A stretch of 64,000 nt of DNA from Gongronella butleri (Eukaryota > Mucoromycota > Mucoromycetes > Mucorales > Cunninghamellaceae). The notes beneath the pieces were generated by a model that was not told the DNA's origin, made no database searches, and saw only the letters and a list, made by a program, of their open reading frames with translations. The position numbers were made by a program, and so were the translations under genes. Shown one piece after another: positions 5,727 to 32,185 of the stretch (positions are counted from its first letter, which is position 1; each line of letters opens with the position of its first letter). Location of the stretch: positions 1 through 64,000 of the forward strand of contig JAIWZP010000014.1 in assembly GCA_025201375.1 (NCBI GenBank). The letters run 5' to 3'.

Positions 5727-5969
5727 CGAAAAGGCTTCCTTGATTCCATGCCCCTGATCTCTTATTGGTATCAATCGGTGCTGCGCGTGTTCAATGGCAA
5801 ACTGATTGTGCTCTCCGGCAAATTTATCCATACCGTGACCGAGACTGCACAGCTGCTCAAGGACCGAAATCAAGAAATCGAGACCGCGACGCGTCGCTTG
5901 TCACAGGGGAACGTCGACGCCAAGCAATTGAGCCAGTATGACACCGTCATGAACGGAAAGCACCCGTAG
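5086..5969 (+). CDS. SigF-like NTF2-like family protein
   Basis: Four exons (5086-5140, 5211-5337, 5405-5631, 5734-5969) encode about 214 residues. After an acidic start (MDSESEFSFDDASEDL) the protein follows the layout of fungal SigF-like NTF2-like proteins: an alpha segment (SIFSYDDIQRQHMIDGYYF), then a cone-shaped alpha+beta core (VFMLWKAMNRQPPHIDNVCF, TCVVYLTQIIQPRLFPWITL), and a final strand pair with VYMHEESWTIDGF. A hydrophobic segment near LISYWYQSVLRVFNGKLIVL could associate with membrane. No catalytic residues are known for this family and the function is unknown. The poly-T tract in the last intron (5705-5726) is typical of this genome. The gene ends only five bases before the duplicated monooxygenase 3' end that starts at 5974. 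Confidence 0.6.
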
Positions 5970-5973
5970 AATC

Positions 5974-6390
5974 GATCGATACCTACCATTTTTTGGCTCG
6001 TCACCCTTGATACCTTGTTTTTACCCCCAAACCATAAAATATGTCAACTACTTTCACTTTATTTCTACAATTAATAGCTGTTCATGCCCTTCCACTTGAA
6101 GAATTGGTTCAAGCCTTTCATAAAGATTTTGCCAAACGCAAATGAAATCGGGCCAGAGCTGTGATTTCGCCAGGTGTTGCGCAGCGACTCCTTCACCGCA
6201 CTTTGTCCACGCGCCCACATGGTCGTCTCGTACTCACCAAGCGCCACTTGCCAGTCCTCACGCGCGAGCGCTTTGGCAAGATCAATCGAGTCCTGAACAA
6301 AAAATAAAAAATGAGAAACAAGTCGCAAAGTGCTTTCTTTTCTTATTTTCTCACCATTAATGCGACGTTCGCCCCGAGTCTCGCGTTCTG
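5974..6390 (-). repeat. Direct repeat, outer copy (monooxygenase 3' end)
   Basis: This copy is collinear with 11361-11775 and in the same orientation. High identity begins at GATCGATACCTACC (5974 and 11361), covers the 3' flank, last exon and intron, and breaks down just inside exon 1. Together the two copies bracket the LAGLIDADG gene. Confidence 0.85.
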
Positions 6391-6784: not shown

Positions 6785-9700
6785 ATGGCGCAGCAGAAAC
6801 GGAGTAAGTTATTTGACCATCTCACACGTGTTGAATACGTGCCATCATGGCTCACCCACTCTAATTTGACTTGTTTTTGTAGTTTCCGATTTCTTCACGC
6901 CTGCAAAGCGGCGTCGAGGTAAAAAACAATGACGATCGCCTTTGATTTTTGCTAATACAATGCTTTGTTTGCGTCCTAGTGGGAGATTCTGGCACGCAAG
7001 AAGGGGACGCGCCCACTGTGGACGCGCCCGATGTGGATGCGCCCAATATCGACTCCTCCAATGTTGTTTCGCCTAATGTCGACACGCCCTTGGAGAGAAT
7101 GGAGGTGAAATATCTGGAAGAGGCGTTCCCAGGCATCAGTCGAGAAGAAGCCCTGCATGCTTTGCAGCAAAAAAACAACGTGGATGCCGCCGCCATTTTT
7201 TTGATGGAAACCGGCGCGGTCGCATCAACCAATTCATCCAATGTGCTCAATTCATCCAATAATCCACCCAATCCACCGCACCCATCGCCCGAACGTGAAG
7301 ACACGACGCCAGAAGCGCCGCAATTGGCACTTTCCCCGGCCACAATCGCTTCTACACGTAAGAAAATCACGACAACCAATTCATTTCTTTGACAATGCCT
7401 TGTTTATTACCTAGTGGATGACTCTGACGATGATGTGATTCATGATGACAGCAATGCCGCGTCTGTGGAAGATGACACCGATGGTCTGTCCCATGTGGAC
7501 GCACTGCAAGATGTTTCCCCACTGGCCAGTCGGCAGGAAATCATCCAGGCTCTCGATGGCAACAAGAACGTGGAGGATGCGGCGCTCATTCTGATGGAAT
7601 CCGGCGCGGCTGTAGACAAAACAGCAACATCCAGCACCCACGAGCACGATTCATCGCATCCATCGCCTGAACGCGAAGACTCGACGCCAGAAGCGCCGCA
7701 ATTGGCACTTTCCCCGGCCACAATCGCTTCTACACGTAAGAAAATCACGACAACCAGTTCATTTCTTTGACAATGCCTTGTTTATTACCTAGTGGATGGC
7801 TTTGACGATGATGTGATTCATGATGACAGCAATGCCGCGTCTGTGGAAGATGACACCGATGGTCTGTCCCATGTGGACGCACTGCAAGATGTTTTCCCAC
7901 TGGCCAGTCGGCAGGAAATCATCCAGGCTCTCGATGGCAACAAGAACATGGAGGATGCGGCGCTCATTCTGACGGAATCCGGCTCGGCTGTAGACAAAGC
8001 AGCAACATCCAGCACCCACGAGCACGATTCATCGCATCCATCGCCTGAACGCGAAGACTCGACGCCAGAAGCGCCACAATTGGTACCCACCCCTCATTCA
8101 CCGCCCACACCCCTCCTCGCACGTCCGCTGCAATCAGCAAACACGACCAGCACGCGTGTATTGGCAGCAGCATCCACCTCTGGCGCGCCTACCAGCCAAT
8201 CGCGCCCGATTCCAGCCACATTCACTACCGAGCAGCTCGAACGCTTTGTTGCCACCATGGTGGAACGCGCCACCGCCGGACCCAGTGGATCTCTGAACCT
8301 GGAAGCCCTGCCTGCTACAATTGACCATGACACCATCCTCCAGAATTTTCATGTGACTTCATACGATTGCGACAATTCCACAGTGCTCCAATTCAAGAGC
8401 AAACAACTCCCTCTTGTTGCCACGTTGACGGCTGCCATGGTTTGGGTCATGAGTGCCTTGACTGATTCGCAACTCTATGTGCTTGGTCTGTACTCAGGAG
8501 ATGGCATTCATAGCAATTCGAGTTACAGCTTCACCGGCTTTGGTTTCCATATTATGGACCTACCCATGTTGCTCGACTTGCTCCTGGCCGTCGGTTTGAC
8601 GGACATTGCACTCAGGTACCCCTTACTCAATCACCTTTTGTCAATTGGATGACGAGGTCTGATTTTTTTTTTTTTTTTTTTTTTGTGGATTGCAAGACTG
8701 ACAAAGGTCATGTAAGTCTGGTCATGGCTGTCTGCGTGCGTCGCTCGCCGGGTGAACTCAAACAAGAGTTGGCAGCTCATGCTTTTTTTTTTCAAGGGAC
8801 CGCGATAATACAGATTTCGTCTATTTGGGCAAGGTCATATGGAACAGCTTCGACAAGAAATTCCAAGACTTCTTCCTAGCGACTGGTTTGCCCAGCTCGA
8901 AAGTGATCACGTGTGTTCCAGATCGCCTCGAGGCCTGGTGGGCGGCGCTACAGACAGGTGTCACTTTCGAGGAGGCCAAGATTCGACTGGCGATTGTCTT
9001 GCTCGGTCTGCTGCATGCGGACGGCAGCGTCCAAACGAAAATCATCGGCACTCTCGATTCCGCCAGTTCTGCGTTCTCTGCGCTTTCTTGGTATCAGAAG
9101 GATCCACACTTCATGCATTGGTTGAAACAGAAGCTTTTTGATTTGTGGGCAATTGATGCATCTTTGATCGAAACGGAAAGTGGTTCTGGCATGTACCGAG
9201 TGTCTATTTACAATACAGCAGACCTCATGTCCTTGTGCAAGCCGGCCATGGATCGATTGGTGGCATCAGGCATTGCTCTTCATGGAAAAATGGATCTGTT
9301 GTGGCGGCTCCTCCACCACCCACGAAATGCAGAAGGCTACTGGTCACGACGCACTTTTGGTCGCCAGGATCTTCAGCAATTCGCCAATGAAGTACCAAGT
9401 GACCAGCGTTTAAGCACGCGAGCTATTGCACGTGTTGTGGCTCAGTAAGTTCCCCTCTGTGTGTGTCTGTGTGTGTGTGTGTGACCGCACAACTCGCCCA
9501 AAAAAGGCGGCGTGGTTGACATATGATCTTGCTCATTTCATTCCTTTTTTTTTTTTTTTTGCCATGAGCAGCGATTTCTATGACCATAGCTACAGCAGCA
9601 TCCGTGCACTGTTGCGATTGTTTAAGCACCAAGAGGATATCGAATCGGTGTGGGACCTGAATTTGCAAGAGCTGGTGGAATTCATGCAAAATTCGGAGTC

Positions 9701-10708
9701 TGTCATTGCAACCGCCTATTGCCGCGTAGCAGAAATGCGCCTTGTCGATCCATCGTGCGCAATGCCAGTGCCGGCTAGGGTCAATTTATCGGTAAGTCAT
9801 ATCAGAAAAAGTTGAACAAAGGGAAGAGAGACGATGCCCATCTTTTTATTAGGGATTTGTCCGATACCTCCATTGTGATGGCATCCTCATGCGGAATTAT
9901 CTGAGCAAGCATGGGTGTCAGGCACTAGACCGCCAGATTACGCCTCACGACGTGGCACCTGTCGAGATGGCCGTGGGCCAGGTGAGCCTCCATTCTATTG
10001 AATCTGCCCATCATGCTCATTTTCTTTTTTTTCACTTTTAAAGCGAGCCGACCATATCCACCCTCTTCCGATTTCGGCATCCACCCTGTATGCGTCCTTT
10101 TTCACAATCACGCCTGTGGTAAAATACGGGATTGAGGAAAAAATCGTGCACATGGATCATGAAATCAGCTGATCCTTTTTTTTTTAACATATTATTGTGA
10201 CGCTTTCTTAGGAAAATGACGACGGTCAAGTGGTGGAATCAATTTGCGACGCTTGTGGCAAGCGCCTTAAGTTTGACCCAAAGTTTGGTCATCAGAGAAC
10301 ACATCTAGTAAGAAAAAAAAGCCATAGCAATTGGCCATGATGCTAACAAATGAAATTCGTAGGCCCTATTTGGCGTCGGTGATGAGAAACAGTTGTGCTC
10401 TACCTGTCGAGTTTTTCTTCCTTTGCAACAAGATTATGATGATCACTTTGGCGGCAAATTCCACGAGGTATGGTACACGCTTTCTTTTTTATTGATTTCT
10501 CTTCTCACATATTGTATCTTTCTTTTCAGACACGTCTCGCTCATGTAATAATAATAGCTAAAGACCAGGTTCTCAAGGCACGCGGCTGATTTTTTTTCTC
10601 AAATTCTTAGTCCGGTGAATTTACTTGCGATGTGTGCTGCGGAATTACGTTTAAATCGGCCAGCAGCCTCAGAAGCCATCTCAAGTCCAAGGCACATCAG
10701 GTACGATA

Positions 10709-10745
<37 letters not shown>

Positions 10746-10844
10746 GCTCTGAACATTTTTTTCCCGTAGGCAAATGCCAGCGTGCGTGAATTCGTCGCCC
10801 GTCAACTCCGAATCGAACTTGAACATGGTCGTTACACGATCTAA
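6785..10844 (+). CDS. LAGLIDADG homing-endonuclease-like protein with PIP box, CUE-like repeats and zinc fingers
   Basis: Fifteen exons (6785-6803, 6883-6918, 6980-7357, 7415-7735, 7793-8615, optional 8697-8711, 8797-9444, 9572-9791, 9853-9981, 10044-10118, 10212-10307, 10363-10467, 10530-10544, 10611-10700, 10770-10844) encode about 1014 residues. Residues 4-11 (QKRISDFF) form a perfect PCNA-interacting box, followed by TPAKRRR, a likely nuclear signal. Three CUE-like units follow, for example LEEAFPGISREEALHALQQ and LQDVFPLASRQEIIQALDG. Two LAGLIDADG motifs come next: LYVLGLYSGDG (about residue 479) and LAIVLLGLLHADGS (about 595). Each keeps the acidic residue expected to bind metal, and the spacing suits a monomeric two-motif endonuclease. 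Zinc fingers begin near residues 900, 932 and 966 (CDAC...HQRTH, CSTC...HFGGKFH, CDVC...HLKSKAH). LAGLIDADG plus C-terminal zinc binding resembles yeast HO, without a visible Hint domain. Activity is unproven; it may be domesticated. The two 15-base exons are uncertain but phase-neutral. Confidence 0.75.
6980..8080 (+). repeat. Tandem exon-intron duplications, 378-base period, each encoding a CUE-like unit
   Basis: Exon 4 (7415-7735) and the start of exon 5 (7793 to about 8080) are nearly identical at a 378-base offset. The 57-base introns before them (7358-7414 and 7736-7792) differ at one base. Exon 3 (6980-7357) shares its last ~80 bases (PSPEREDTTPEAPQLALSP) at the same 378-base offset, but its CUE-like part has diverged. 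This indicates an older duplication followed by a very recent one. Confidence 0.9.
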
Positions 10845-11360
10845 ATCCATTTCATTCCCAAAAACAAAACAAAAGCAACATTCCAAACATCTATATCATA
10901 TCATTTAGTGTAGCATCCCCTCAGAGAAATAAAATTTGAGCATTAGTCAGCCTAGGGACAAGGCAAAAGATCGACTTTTCAGATCACAAATGTAATTTTA
11001 GTGCATAATTGATTTTGCGAGCACTCGTCGATCTAAAATTTGGCTCTGGCATTTGATATTTTATGCGATGCTGTCGGTTTTATTGCTGGCTCCAATGTTG
11101 ACTTGCTGAATGAATCCTATTTTTACGAGAATGCACCAGCCGATCGCTTTGAAACCCATTAAATTGTCACGGACCATCCCAAGCTCAGAAGCGAGCGCAC
11201 CCAAAAGGCGCCCGAGTCGACACATATCACGCGTTAAAAGTCATTTTCGCAAATTTAGGACTGATTCTAGTTTTTTTCGTGGATGTCGGCAAACTGGCGC
11301 CATTTAATTAAAAGAGACACGCTCGGACGCCATTTTCCAATTGATTGCACGCCCGATATT
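10845..11360. other. Intergenic stretch downstream of the LAGLIDADG gene
   Basis: This is the AT-rich 3' flank of two convergent genes. AATAAA-like poly(A) signals occur near 10927. No coding capacity or RNA gene was recognised. If the bracketed segment is a mobile unit, one of its edges should lie here or at 11361. Confidence 0.4.
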
Positions 11361-11775
11361 GATCGATACCTACCATTTTTTGGCTCGTCCCCCTTGATAC
11401 CTTGCTTTTACCCCCAAATCATAAAATATGACAACTACTTTCACTTTATTTCTACAATTAATAGCTGTTCATGCCCTTCCACTTGAAGAATTGGTTCAAG
11501 CCTTTCATAAAGATTTTGCCAAACGCAAATGAAATCGGGCCAGAGCTGTGATTTCGCCAGGTGTTGCGCAACGACTCCTTCACCGCGCTTTGACCACGCG
11601 CCCACATGGTCGTCTCGTACTCACCAAGCGCCACTTGCCAGTCCTCACGCGCGAGCGCCTTGGCAAGATCAATCGAGTCCTGAACAAAAAAAAAAAAAAT
11701 GAGAAGCAAGTCGCAAAGTGCTTTTTTTTTCTTATTTTCTCACCATTAATGCCGTGTTGGCGCCAAGTCCCGCGT
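11361..11775 (-). repeat. Direct repeat, inner copy (3' end of the intact monooxygenase)
   Basis: This is the partner of 5974-6390. It forms the functional last exon, intron and 3' flank of the FAD monooxygenase. Confidence 0.85.
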
Positions 11776-12748
11776 TTGGTGAGGTAGCGTGAGCGGCGTC
11801 CCCGAGAAGCGTGACGCGTTGATGCTTTATCTTGGTCAATGGGCAATCTGGTTGGTATTTTGTCGAATGAACTTGTCGTGTACCGCCTAGGACCACATTT
11901 TCACCGGTGGCACGATCGACGAGCTTGGCGAATTCAGGATGAAAATGCTCGTGCACGATCTTCTGCATCCATTGGAGCATGCCAGCATTGTCAGTGGGAA
12001 GCGTGGTGCCCTCCACGAGCGAGTCAGGCCATGAAAGTCCGACAAACATGTCTTTGCCGCCGGTATCGTTGGACGCGACGCCTGTCAAGATGCTGTAGCC
12101 GTTCGGTGAACTAGAGCGCACCATGGCAAAGGGGAGCCAAGTCATCAAATGCGGAATTTCTTTTGGATCGGGCGCATCAAACATGATGCCAAATTGAGAG
12201 ACGCCCACTCCTTCGTATCGAATGCTAGGACAGAGTTGTTTCCTGACTTGTGACCAGCAGCCATCGGCTCCAATTGCGATATCTGCCGTGATCTTGCTGC
12301 CGTCCTCAAAAAATACATCGATGCCGTCGTCTTTCTCCTCGTAACGTGTGAAACGCTTGTTGTACACAATGTCCACCTTTTGGGCGAGCAGCCTATGCAG
12401 CGTGCGTCGATGCAGGATTGCAATGGCCCACGCACTGTCCTCGCCATTGGCCGCCGTGGCCGCCTGCGCAGGGCCGCCCATGCGCAGCAGCTCGTTTAAT
12501 TTTTCGTCAAGCACCACAAAGCCTGTCACCATATTGGATCGCGTCGCCTCCGCCAGATTCTCGATTTGCGCCTCCTTCATCGCCGCAAGACCATTCTGAT
12601 TGATGCCCAGATGCCAGCCTTGTTGATGCTCTGGTGATTTGATCTGGTCGTACACGGTCACCTCAAGATTCGGAGCGTACACCCGCAGCGCATTGGCAAG
12701 ATTCAGACCGCCGATGCCACCACCAATAATTGCAACAGTTTTAAGCAT
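11458..12748 (-). CDS. FAD-dependent monooxygenase (PHBH fold)
   Basis: Two exons on the minus strand (12748-11744, 11679-11458) encode about 408 residues. The N-terminus has the dinucleotide-binding Rossmann motif TVAIIGGGIGGLNLANAL. Around residue 170 is the family's DG motif (AIGADGCWSQVRKQL), and near residue 320 the second FAD-binding motif LLGDAAHATSPNAGLGANTA. These three define flavoprotein aromatic-ring hydroxylase-type monooxygenases, soluble enzymes that use NAD(P)H and O2 to hydroxylate small substrates. The substrate cannot be told from sequence. Exon 2 is short and ends WKGMNSY. Its near-perfect copy lies 5.4 kb away on the other side of the LAGLIDADG gene, so this 3' end may have been replaced or homogenised. 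The start is the first ATG, directly before the Rossmann motif. Confidence 0.9.
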
Positions 12749-28986: not shown

Positions 28987-31900
28987 ATGTCCGAAGAACA
29001 CACAAAGGTGGAAGTGTCTGACACTCCCAAGCAACAAGTCAATGGTGATTACACCAACTTCACCGTCGAGGAACTCTACGATAAGGATAAGTTCGACTTG
29101 TCCACCATGGACAACCAAGATGCCATGGCTCTCTTGAAGTAAGCATATCCATTCCAACATTTGGATCAATGGGGGGCCCCTGTCAATGCGTGTTGTGTCC
29201 ACGGGCATTGGCTTTTTATGGCAAAACGCAAATGTAAACAAAAAAAATCGTTAACCTTTTTTTTTTTTTTTTTTTTTCTGTATTATAGGACCTCTCGTGA
29301 TGGTCTGACCTCGCAAGAGGCTGCTGCCCGCATTGAGAAGTTTGGCTCCAACAAGCTGGAAACCAAGGAAGTCAACCCCTTCTTGCAATTCCTTGGCTTC
29401 ATGTGGAACCCTCTTTCTTGGGTCATGGAGGCTGCCGCCATTGTCGCCATTGCTTTGTCCAATGGCTTTGGCAAGCCCCCCGATTACCCTGATTTCATTG
29501 GTATCGTGCTCTTGTTGTTGGCTAACTCCATCATTGGCTTCATGGAAGAACGCCAGGCCGGCAATGCCGTCAAGGCCCTGATGGAGGCTCTTGCCCCTGA
29601 ATGTAAGGTCAAGCGTGATGGCGAGTGGAAGACTATGGAAGCCGCTCACTTGGTCCCCGGTGATATCATTGCCTGCAAGTTGGGTGATGTTGTCCCTGCC
29701 GATGGTCGTCTCATCTCTGTAAGTTCCTGTTTTGTGATTGGGGGGCCCTTTTTCCTTTTCCCCCTTTCCCCGCGACCTGGGCCACAAGGAAAAAAAAATT
29801 TTTTTTCTCTCTTTGCCTAGTTTGGTTTTTTAAAACACAGCAATGGCTCCGATTGGAAAAGATCCCATTTGTCTGACCCTGTTTTTTTTTCCTTTTCCCC
29901 CGCAATAGGCTCACGGTCAAGTTTCTATCGATCAAGCCGCTTTGACTGGTGAATCGCTCCCCGTCACCAAGGAAGCTGGCGATGAAATCTTCTCTGGTTC
30001 CACTGTCAAGCAAGGTGAAGCTGAGGCTCTCATCATTGGTACCGGTCTCAACACCTTCTTTGGCCGCGCTGCCAAGCTTGTTGGTGATGCTGGCGATGAC
30101 ACTGGCCATTTGCAGCAGATTCTTGCCTCCATTGGTAACTTCTGTCTGTGCACCATTGGTATCTTCTTGGTCCTCGTCCTGATTGTTCAATATGCCGCTT
30201 TCCACTACGATTACCGCCGTGGTATCGACAACATCCTTGTCTTGCTCATTGGTGGTATTCCCATTGCCATGCCCACTGTCCTTTCCGTCACTCTTGCCAT
30301 TGGTGCCAAGCAATTGGCCGAGCACAAGGCCATTGTCACCCGTATCACTGCCATTGAGGAGATGGCCGCTGTCACCATCCTTTGCTCTGACAAGACCGGT
30401 ACTTTGACCCTCAACAAGCTCATTGTCGACAAGCCCACCATCAAGCAATATGCTGAGTTTGACGGCGACGATATCATCAAGTTGTCTGCCTTTGCCTCGC
30501 GCACTGAGAACCAGGATGCCATCGATTTCTGCATTGTCAACTCTCTGCCCGATCCCTCTGCCGCCCGCGCTGGCATTGACGAGCTCGAATTCAAGCCCTT
30601 CAACCCCGTCGTCAAGCGCACTGAAATCACCTACAAGGATCACGCCTCTGGCAAGGTCCTCCGTGTCACCAAGGGTATGTCCCACACCATTTTGGATCTC
30701 TGCACGCGCGACAAGACCGAGGAGCAGATCAAGGCTCTCAATGACGATGTCGACGAGTTTGCTCGCCGTGGTCTCCGTGCTCTGGCTGTTGCTGTTGATG
30801 AAGTGCCCTCTGGCGAGGTCGAAGGCGAAGGTCTCGGTATGCGTCTCATTGGTCTCTTGCCCATCTACGATCCTCCCCGCTCTGATACCAAGGAGACCAT
30901 TGACCGCTCTATTGCTCTCGGTGTCCAAGTCAAGATGATCACTGGTGATCAATTGGCTATTGGCAAGGAAACCGGCCGTCGTCTCGGCATGGGTGACAAC
31001 ATGTTCTTGGCCAAGACCCTCAAGGAAGGCCCCCCCGCTGGCTCTGGTTACACTGATGTCGATGACATGATCTTGCAATGCGATGGTTTCGCCGGTGTCT
31101 ACCCCGAGCACAAGTATGAGATTGTCGAACGCCTCCAGAACCTCGGCCACATGACCGCCATGACTGGTGATGGTGTCAATGACGCCCCCGCTCTCTCCAA
31201 GGCCAACGTTGGTGTCGCTGTCGCTGATGCCACCGATGCTGCTCGTTCCGCTGCCGACATTGTCCTCACCGAGCCCGGTTTGTCCGTCATCGTCGAGGCC
31301 ATCATTGGCTCCCGCCAGATTTTCCAACGTATGCGCAACTACTCGATCTACACCTGCTCCGTCACCATTCGTGTCGTCGTCGGCTTCTCCATCTTGTGCT
31401 GGGCCTACCAATTCGATTTCCCTCCTTTCCTTGTCTTGATTTTGGCCATCCTCAACGACGGTACCATCATGACCATCTCTACTGACCGCGTCAAGCCCTC
31501 TCCCTTCCCCAACTCCTGGAACTTGCGCGAAATCTTCACCTATGCCATCGTCTACGGTCTCTACCTCACCGTCTCCACCGTCGCCTTCTTTGCCGTTGCC
31601 TACCAGACCGACTTCTTCTCTGAAAAGTTCGGCGTCGAGCGCTTCGCCGACCCCAACGACCCCGTCTACCACTCGGTCATCTATTTGCAGGTGTCCACCA
31701 TCTCGCAGGGTCTCATCTTCATCACTCGCTCGCGCGGCTTCTTCTTCACTGAGCGCCCCTCGGTCCTCCTCATGTGCGCTTTCGTCGTTGCTCAATTGGT
31801 CGCCACCTTCATCGCCGTCTATGCCGACTGGGGCTTCACCAGCATCAAGGGCTGTGGCTGGTCGTGGGCCGGTATTGTCTGGATCTGGAACTTTGTCTGG

Positions 31901-32185
31901 TTCATCCCTCTTGACTTTATCAAGTTCGCCATGCAATACATCTACGAGCCCAAGAACACCATGGACATGAAGCGTCAACCCGGCTCGCGCCGCACCTCCG
32001 CCATGTCTGGCTCCTCCTCCGCTCGTTACTATGCCAACCGCACTCGCTCCCTCAAGTCCATGGAACGCCCCCAGAACTTTGGCCAACGCGTCTTGTCCAT
32101 GGGCAAGAAGCGCATGGACCCCAAGGAAATGCGCCGTTTCAGCTCTGCTCAAGCTTCCGCTGCCGCTCAAGTCTTGAACAACTAG
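28987..32185 (+). CDS. PMA1: Plasma-membrane H+-transporting P-type ATPase (type IIIA)
   Basis: Three exons (28987-29138, 29289-29718, 29909-32185) encode about 952 residues. The enzyme pumps protons out of the cell, setting the membrane potential that drives nutrient uptake. Signature motifs are present: TGESLPVT in the actuator domain, the phosphorylated aspartate in [13 protein letters not shown] near residue 355, [17 protein letters not shown], and the hinge [20 protein letters not shown]. Around ten membrane helices are recognisable, including [20 protein letters not shown] before the phosphorylation site and several in the last third. The C-terminal tail is Arg/Ser-rich ([25 protein letters not shown]) and may be the autoinhibitory, kinase-regulated region. 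Codon use is strongly biased toward C-ending and GGT/GCT codons, as expected for high expression. That bias leaves a long open frame on the opposite strand. Confidence 0.97.

Follow-up and report, generated by a model that had tools for sequence, protein, structure and literature searches.

A probable WHO-type homing endonuclease gene beside a fungal monooxygenase gene

The analysed window, a stretch of 64,000 nucleotides, contains a gene at positions 6785–10844 that probably, with a likelihood of roughly three in four, encodes the endonuclease of a nuclear homing element of the WHO type, one that lies beside its host gene and does not interrupt it. WHO elements are rare selfish elements of yeasts (Torulaspora, Lachancea), which, according to part of their description, cut a host gene and replace one of its ends (Coughlan et al., 2020; PMC7282813). 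Judged by its anatomy, the locus is best read as an element of this type outside the yeasts in which WHO elements are known. The genome is that of a fungus, judging by 39 Zn_clus and 12 chitin-synthase matches counted by exon, both types being absent from all 14 genomes of a control set of unstated nature. A previous interpretation of the same DNA (here called the sequence-only reading) proposed a repair-linked nuclease and overlooked that the gene stands between a whole and a partial copy of a host gene; it is this position that leads us to read the gene as part of a homing element instead.

Judged from its coding sequence, the LAGLIDADG–zinc-finger endonuclease-like gene (6785–10844, forward strand, contig C17) is real. 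The spliced model gives a single open frame of 1009 aa with GT-AG at every intron, and counts 14 coding exons instead of the 15 claimed earlier. For a relative at C1, a model guided by this gene reproduced the corresponding exon series for exons 1–2 and the last ten exons; exon 2 is 36 nt long in both.

The core of the predicted protein carries two LAGLIDADG motifs on the forward strand. Motif 1, LYVLGLYSGDG, is encoded at 8473–8505 and contains the invariant residues G24, D25 and H28; motif 2, LAIVLLGLLHADGS, is encoded at 8987–9028 with invariant G133, D138 and G139, in a region that the family profile aligns to I-CreI. All six residues, including both LAGLIDADG acids (D25 and D138), are kept in 7/7 aligned family members, as the sequence-only reading had indicated for the acids. 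A search of the PDB with the family profile, which comprises seven relatives from the same genome, returned 38 matches at E up to 10, and the first 33 (to E 0.69) were all LAGLIDADG chains. The best match was an engineered single-chain form (4.3e-7), followed by I-CreI variants from 0.0012, many of which are variants of one protein, and by weak matches to I-OnuI and I-MsoI (0.3–0.7). Pfam LAGLIDADG_3 was found in three of the seven members, with a best value of 3.1e-5. Searches with single sequences stayed below threshold: the core alone matched LAGLIDADG_3 at 0.0099, found just two chains in the PDB, both irrelevant (E 0.27 and 0.35), and had no match in NCBIfam, and the whole protein matched no LAGLIDADG family in Pfam at E up to 1. 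Single-sequence structure prediction of exon 6 alone reached a mean pLDDT of 45.9, too poor for fold assessment, and a scan of IMG/VR with the same exon gave five pattern matches, none of them a relative. The LAGLIDADG identity is thus firm through the family profile, with sub-threshold signals from the single sequence. The family profile also supports the proposed descent from a homing endonuclease.

Exons 1–2 (6785–6803 and 6883–6918, forward strand) encode MAQQKRISDFFTPAKRRR, in which the predicted PIP box QKRISDFF is followed by the basic run TPAKRRR. The PIP consensus is Q-x-x-[ILMV]-x-x-[FY]-[FY], and a PIP degron additionally has a TD motif and a basic residue at +4, as set out in part of PMC3973308. 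QKRISDFF fits this consensus. Random 25-residue strings contain the slightly wider pattern Qxx[ILMV]xx[FYW][FYW] in 0.15% of cases, and it is found at 2 of the 1317 open ATG starts in the whole window. The C1 relative has a similar start, MTRSKRTIDEYFGPVKRRR, but with K where the PIP box has Q. Compared with the PIP degrons of Cdt1, p21 and Set8, as covered in that part of PMC3973308, the endonuclease start shares the QxxI-xD-FF-xxx-K layout and the K at +4, and has SD in place of the TD motif.

Three CUE-like units had been suggested downstream of the PIP box, and only part of this suggestion stands. With the whole protein as query, Pfam CUE matches residues 61–89 (7105–7191, forward strand; 2.4e-4) with a score of 21.1, equal to the cut-off of 21.1; this first unit submitted by itself falls under the cut-off (6.6e-4, 19.7 bits). 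Units 2 and 3, each submitted separately, matched no Pfam family at E up to 0.1, and neither did the CUE-like unit of a broken relative at C26. Units 2 and 3 owe their existence to a tandem duplication of an intron-containing exon–intron unit at 7271–8086 (forward strand), the copies of which, 7271–7708 and 7649–8086, are 96% identical. The set of three CUE domains was therefore rejected in favour of one borderline match with two look-alikes, and this one match is what a putative ubiquitin binding rests on. The three zinc-finger units assigned to the C-terminus are borne out by the model, where three Cys/His units with three CxxC pairs, counted by eye, lie at 10212–10700 (forward strand; exons 10212–10307, 10363–10467 and 10611–10700). 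Pfam, searched with the whole protein, calls the last unit zf-met, a C2H2 type (6.1e-7, 30 bits against a cut-off of 21.2), and the C1 relative model has a similar Cys/His pattern.

The putative host gene lies on the reverse strand. The intact FAD-dependent monooxygenase gene with its 3' flank occupies 11358–12748 (ATG at 12748, stop codon at 11458–11460), and its product matches FAD_binding_3 (Pfam, 1.6e-20) and monooxygenases in the PDB. The arm adjoining the endonuclease gene, 11358–11776, comprises the end of the first exon, the intron, the last exon and 3' flank. On the far side, at 5971–6387 and in the same orientation, lies a displaced piece of the host gene, derived from its 3' end and 95% identical to this arm over 419 columns. 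The endonuclease gene is thus enclosed by a direct repeat, and these two copies were the only genomic places found for the monooxygenase 3' end.

The displaced copy is broken at the conserved GDAAH...GAN motif (codons GDAAH...GLGAN), and past 6387 the sequence has diverged from the host gene. Across the 73 codons of the last exon, the two copies differ by four synonymous and no non-synonymous changes; since the differences are only synonymous, this suggests that the displaced exon was under selection until recently, a pattern that depends on four differences. The broken end is richer in mismatches, with 7 in 36 columns against 12 in 383 elsewhere (Fisher 4.6e-4; scan permutation 0.016), and shows two amino-acid changes in 11 codons. 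Such a cluster is what a sensitive and a resistant allele would be predicted to show, or it could reflect ordinary decay at the end of a fragment.

Similar arrangements were found around three other members of the family in this genome. The C1 member is flanked by direct repeats of the 5' end of a ClpB-like gene (87%), the C44 member by those of the 5' end of a GH15 glucoamylase gene (72–76%), and the broken copy at C26 by 82% repeats that contain no recognised gene and matched nothing in Rfam at the gathering threshold. Pfam matches of the host genes were FAD_binding_3 (C17), AAA_lid_9 (C1) and Glyco_hydro_15 (C44). Each of these four loci has a different straddling repeat. At C17, C1 and C44 the endonuclease gene lies between a complete host gene and its fragment; what has been duplicated is one end of the neighbouring gene, and the break lies inside coding sequence. 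The three breaks fall at GDAAH...GAN, DPVIGRDEEIRRTLE and DPNYYFSWVRDSA, the latter two of which we take to be conserved protein motifs. Around eight other family loci (two clade-A relics, C18 and C25, and six clade-B loci; about 122 kb), no repeats of at least 150 bp with a spacing of 2–9 kb were found, a threshold chosen after the repeats had been seen; one clade-B locus, C23:1044k, is flanked by a 73-bp, 79% pair with a spacing of 7.8 kb, which is too short for this threshold. The survey covered 12 of the 18 family places (all except C75, C1:1154k, C22, C79, C67 and C1:109k). Because these eight loci have no such repeats, straddling repeats characterise only some members of the family. C1 also has a second repeat pair, the order of which is unexplained by one insertion, and C26 carries, inside another repeat and away from the intact genes, a fragment from the 3' ends of two convergent neighbours, one of which is a ZNF830-like gene.

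A homing cycle would account for this anatomy as follows. Where one chromosome has the element and another has none, the LAGLIDADG enzyme would cut the monooxygenase gene of the latter at the GDAAH...GLGAN codons. The break would be repaired from the element-bearing chromosome, with homology supplied by the copies of the monooxygenase 3' end that flank the endonuclease gene. In the recipient, the monooxygenase gene would then be whole and end in the cut-resistant 3' sequence of the donor; the endonuclease gene would follow, and after it, as an outward fragment, the recipient's own old 3' end. An end state of this kind is present at C17, and from it we infer the origin. Relatives may do likewise at other conserved genes, also at their 5' ends. 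The zinc fingers may help in target recognition, and the PIP box could link the enzyme to PCNA, acting during repair synthesis or else marking the enzyme for destruction in S phase.

In favour of homing are the direct repeat of the monooxygenase 3' end, its counterparts at C1, C44 and C26, the lack of large repeats around the eight other loci examined, the three breaks in apparently conserved coding motifs and the LAGLIDADG acids kept in all seven members. Against it speak the duplicated 5' ends at C1 and C44, unlike WHO at FBA1, the straddling repeat without a recognised gene at C26, the out-of-order second repeat pair at C1 and the restriction of such repeats to some family members. One alternative is that a nuclease domesticated by the host, similar to HO or active in repair, sits in a local duplication by chance: the PIP box with its basic run and the length of the open frame would suit such a role, HO is a known domesticated case, and a number of clade-B relatives combine long open frames with a lack of large repeats at their flanks, as would be expected of domesticated genes. 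This is nevertheless unlikely, as three further clade-A copies lie between different repeats, and the broken relics at C26, C18 and C25 fit a mobile-element cycle better than one host function.

Quite unlikely, too, is a transposon-like element that inserts arbitrarily and drags host-gene pieces along, since at C17, C1 and C44 it is the adjacent gene's end that is duplicated, with a break in conserved-motif coding sequence; family members do occur at different genes, the ZNF830-like fragment at C26 sits inside another repeat, and WHO10 of Torulaspora globosa is described, in part of PMC7282813, as inserting arbitrarily and carrying host-gene pieces. A tandem duplication of the monooxygenase gene, with one copy decayed and the nuclease gene caught between by chance, would explain why the left copy is a fragment and why the sequence past 6387 has diverged. 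This explanation is very improbable, because four loci each have a different straddling repeat, whereas the roughly 122 kb surveyed at the eight other family loci contained none as large.

The homing-element reading can be extended, more speculatively, to a second origin of host-flanking homing elements outside the yeasts, from a different LAGLIDADG–C2H2 lineage. Such elements would replace either end of a host gene and aim at conserved-motif codons, and a PIP-degron-like start would confine cutting to a PCNA-defined cell-cycle window; we regard this combination as doubtful. If the homing-element reading is true, the class would gain in generality through a further family with WHO anatomy, this one from a fungus rich in introns, and either host-gene end would be usable by such elements. 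Several natural enzyme–target pairs would become available for comparison, and a connection between a homing enzyme and PCNA could be put to the test.

Among known systems, solved LAGLIDADG homing endonucleases such as I-CreI, I-OnuI and I-MsoI make up the 33 best PDB profile matches. These three are intron-encoded organelle enzymes and are not known to have zinc fingers or a PIP box. No chain of VDE (PI-SceI) or HO was among the 38 PDB profile matches at E up to 10, and no intein family was among the six matches that the whole protein gave in Pfam at E up to 1, a search that distant remnants could escape. The likeness to WHO elements, drawn from anatomy and from part of their description (PMC7282813), lies in a LAGLIDADG protein with a C-terminal zinc-finger region, in a free-standing gene beside a complete host gene with a host-gene fragment of ~400 bp at the far side, and in intact and broken copies within one genome, with some copies elsewhere carrying fragments. 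According to the same part of that paper, WHO proteins have three to five CxxC pairs, against three here by eye; their fingers are compared to Ash1, whereas Pfam assigns the C2H2 type here; and their host gene is FBA1 (aldolase), with its 3' end duplicated. The hosts here are, by their Pfam matches, monooxygenase, ClpB-like and glucoamylase genes instead of FBA1, and 5' ends (C1, C44) as well as a 3' end (C17) are duplicated. The PIP box, CUE match and many introns of the 6785–10844 gene also differ from WHO. HO, compared by description, is likewise a nuclear LAGLIDADG protein with a C-terminal zinc-finger region; it is a domesticated enzyme encoded at a distance from its target, whereas the gene described here adjoins its putative target.

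The LAGLIDADG–zinc-finger endonuclease-like gene (6785–10844, +) is flanked by a direct repeat with one copy on each side (5971–6387 and 11358–11776; 95% identity over 419 columns), and no third copy was found in a genome-wide search. The copy on the right forms the 3' end of an intact minus-strand host gene (11358–12748), identified as an FAD-monooxygenase by Pfam (FAD_binding_3, 1.6e-20) and by the monooxygenases among its PDB matches. The left copy is this 3' end alone. Its similarity breaks off within codons of the conserved GDAAH...GLGAN motif, which also aligns in a PDB relative; its other end is at 5971, and a convergent neighbour has its stop codon ending at 5969. Over the 73 codons of the last exon, the displaced and intact copies show four synonymous and no non-synonymous changes. 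Because of this pattern, albeit from only four differences, the displaced piece appears to have belonged to a working gene until recently. Mismatches are denser at its broken end (7/36 columns versus 12/383; Fisher 4.6e-4; scan permutation of the cluster, 0.016), where the amino acid is altered in 2 of 11 codons.

The spliced model of the window gene comprises 14 coding exons separated by GT-AG introns, with a single frame of 1009 amino acids beginning with MAQQKRISDFFTPAKRRR; the sequence-only reading had given the same span and counted 15 exons. Both LAGLIDADG motifs that it reported are present in the model. Its three CUE-like units were borne out in part: Pfam matched one CUE domain with a score exactly equal to the cut-off, and units 2 and 3, which originated by a 96% tandem duplication including one intron, gave no match at E up to 0.1. 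Among the proposed C-terminal fingers, a zf-met finger scored above the Pfam cut-off.

The cores of seven family members, 20–40% identical to the first sequence, were aligned; G24, D25, H28, W78, G93, S96, S97, G133, D138, G139 and W171 are invariant in all seven. A PDB search with the resulting profile returned LAGLIDADG chains as the first 33 of 38 matches, which are not independent since many are variants of one protein. The best match was an engineered single-chain form of I-CreI (4.3e-7), followed by I-CreI variants from 0.0012 and by I-OnuI and I-MsoI, up to 0.69; non-LAGLIDADG chains appeared only from E 0.96. Pfam LAGLIDADG_3 was found in three of the seven (best 3.1e-5), and no other Pfam family matched the aligned cores.

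When four family proteins were searched against the genome that contains the window (110 contigs, 33.0 Mb) at E below 1e-3, matches were obtained at 18 places by our count, with C1:1154–1155k (contig and kb position) taken as one. An 11-row tree separated clade A (the window gene on C17, C1:980k, C26:477k, C44:20k, C18:477k, C25:506k) from clade B (C16:221k, C21:422k, C23:1044k, C23:451k, C46:94k) at 100/100, with C46 flagged as a long branch and C26 and C18 as poorly filled. Outside the tree are C29:281k, grouped here with clade B according to its top matches, and C75:36k, C1:1154k, C22:429k, C79:76k, C67:302k and C1:109k. Clade B members combine LAGLIDADG with long C2H2 arrays, longer than in clade A, show no large flanking repeats within the sequence examined, and are possibly domesticated; a PIP-like (PCNA-binding) start was not seen in their sequence, read without modelled first exons. 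At C1:1154234–1155587, neighbouring pieces match two different clade B members and are perhaps a cluster of relics. C18:475594–476860 is a relic of a C44-like member, broken up by tandem repeats and, by eye, lying in two opposite orientations.

The C1:980k relative gave an open model of 16 exons and 772 amino acids, starting with MTRSKRTIDEYFGPVKRRR. Its exons 1–2 and last ten are counterparts of window-gene exons and its middle differs, an agreement that is not fully independent because the window gene guided the model. Its PIP region retains the hydrophobic, aromatic and basic positions of the window gene and not the Q. The C26 member is broken, with its first pieces QQKH and SNYFESSKRK still readable by eye, and the C44 member has a looser PIP-like KLTRFFSKGR; the canonical Q is therefore not kept in all copies. 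PIP-like matches occur in 0.15% of random 25-residue strings. The window-gene protein may use PCNA. In sequence, its PIP region resembles the PIP degron signature given in PMC3973308 (Q/N-x-x-psi-T-D-theta-theta-x-x-x-R/K), except for S at the T position; a timing role is only an idea.

For 12 of the 18 family places, the surrounding sequence was examined (9 kb at C29, 6 kb at C46, and 17–24 kb or the window at the remaining ten), using a threshold of 150 bp or more at 2–9 kb spacing, chosen after the repeats were seen. Repeats over this threshold occur at four of the 12 (C17, C1, C44, C26), every one in clade A, and are absent at two clade A relics (C18, C25) and at six clade B loci, C29 included. 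The straddling repeat at C1 (977751–978655/984494–985403, 87%) is the 5' end of a ClpB-like gene (Pfam AAA_lid_9) and stops a few bases past DPVIGRDEEIRRTLEG; a second pair (978676–978844/983860–984021, 71%) is older, and the order is not explained by one insertion. At C44, three repeated pieces (72–76%) represent the 5' end of a GH15 gene (Pfam, 7.3e-23), stopping within DPNYYFSWVRDSA, and the displaced copy has decayed. The C26 repeat (475339–476252/480269–481193, 82%) has no recognised gene and encloses the endonuclease-like gene together with a fragment containing the 3' ends of a ZNF830-like gene (Pfam ZNF380_CC, 4.8e-10) and of a second gene convergent with it, read by eye; this member looks like a copy that has left an earlier host gene. 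Two further C26 pairs do not straddle the gene (479740–480271/483497–484035 and 479520–479755/483128–483362). About 118 bp at C26:475919–476036 has at least 38 further genome matches (73–90%) and no Rfam family at the gathering threshold. Below the threshold, a 73-bp pair straddling C23:1044k in clade B (1041969–1042040/1049745–1049817; 79%, 7.8 kb apart) may be what is left of a former flanking duplication. Tandem repeats are present at several family loci.

The comparison outside the family is the rest of the window, which contains one further non-tandem pair, direct and 30 kb apart (14916–15678/45383–46149; about 790 columns, 70% identical). The window also encodes a proton-pump ATPase (29909–32185, +), which among PDB chains lies nearer to 'ATPase 2, plasma membrane-type' (1.1e-252), a plant enzyme, than to those of the fungal Plasma membrane ATPase 1 (5.8e-123).

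In the published model for WHO elements, yeast homing elements beside FBA1, the enzyme cleaves a sensitive host allele and the element-bearing chromosome is the repair template; a resistant 3' end replaces that of the host, and the old end is displaced beyond the new endonuclease gene (Coughlan et al., 2020, PMC7282813). The anatomy of this product is also found at the window locus, where gene, repeats, breakpoints and pattern of differences are directly observed. By analogy, the window-gene enzyme would cleave the monooxygenase gene, the element would home, and the replaced host-gene end would be resistant. Among the matches listed from the open-licence literature, titles and abstract beginnings mention neither an element of this kind in organisms other than yeasts nor a homing endonuclease that carries a PIP box; WHO elements were reviewed in 2024, as cited in PMC12324515. 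By anatomy, the window element is a WHO-type homing element. We do not assign it to the WHO family itself, because its host gene is a different one, family members also use 5' ends, and the comparison is one of anatomy.
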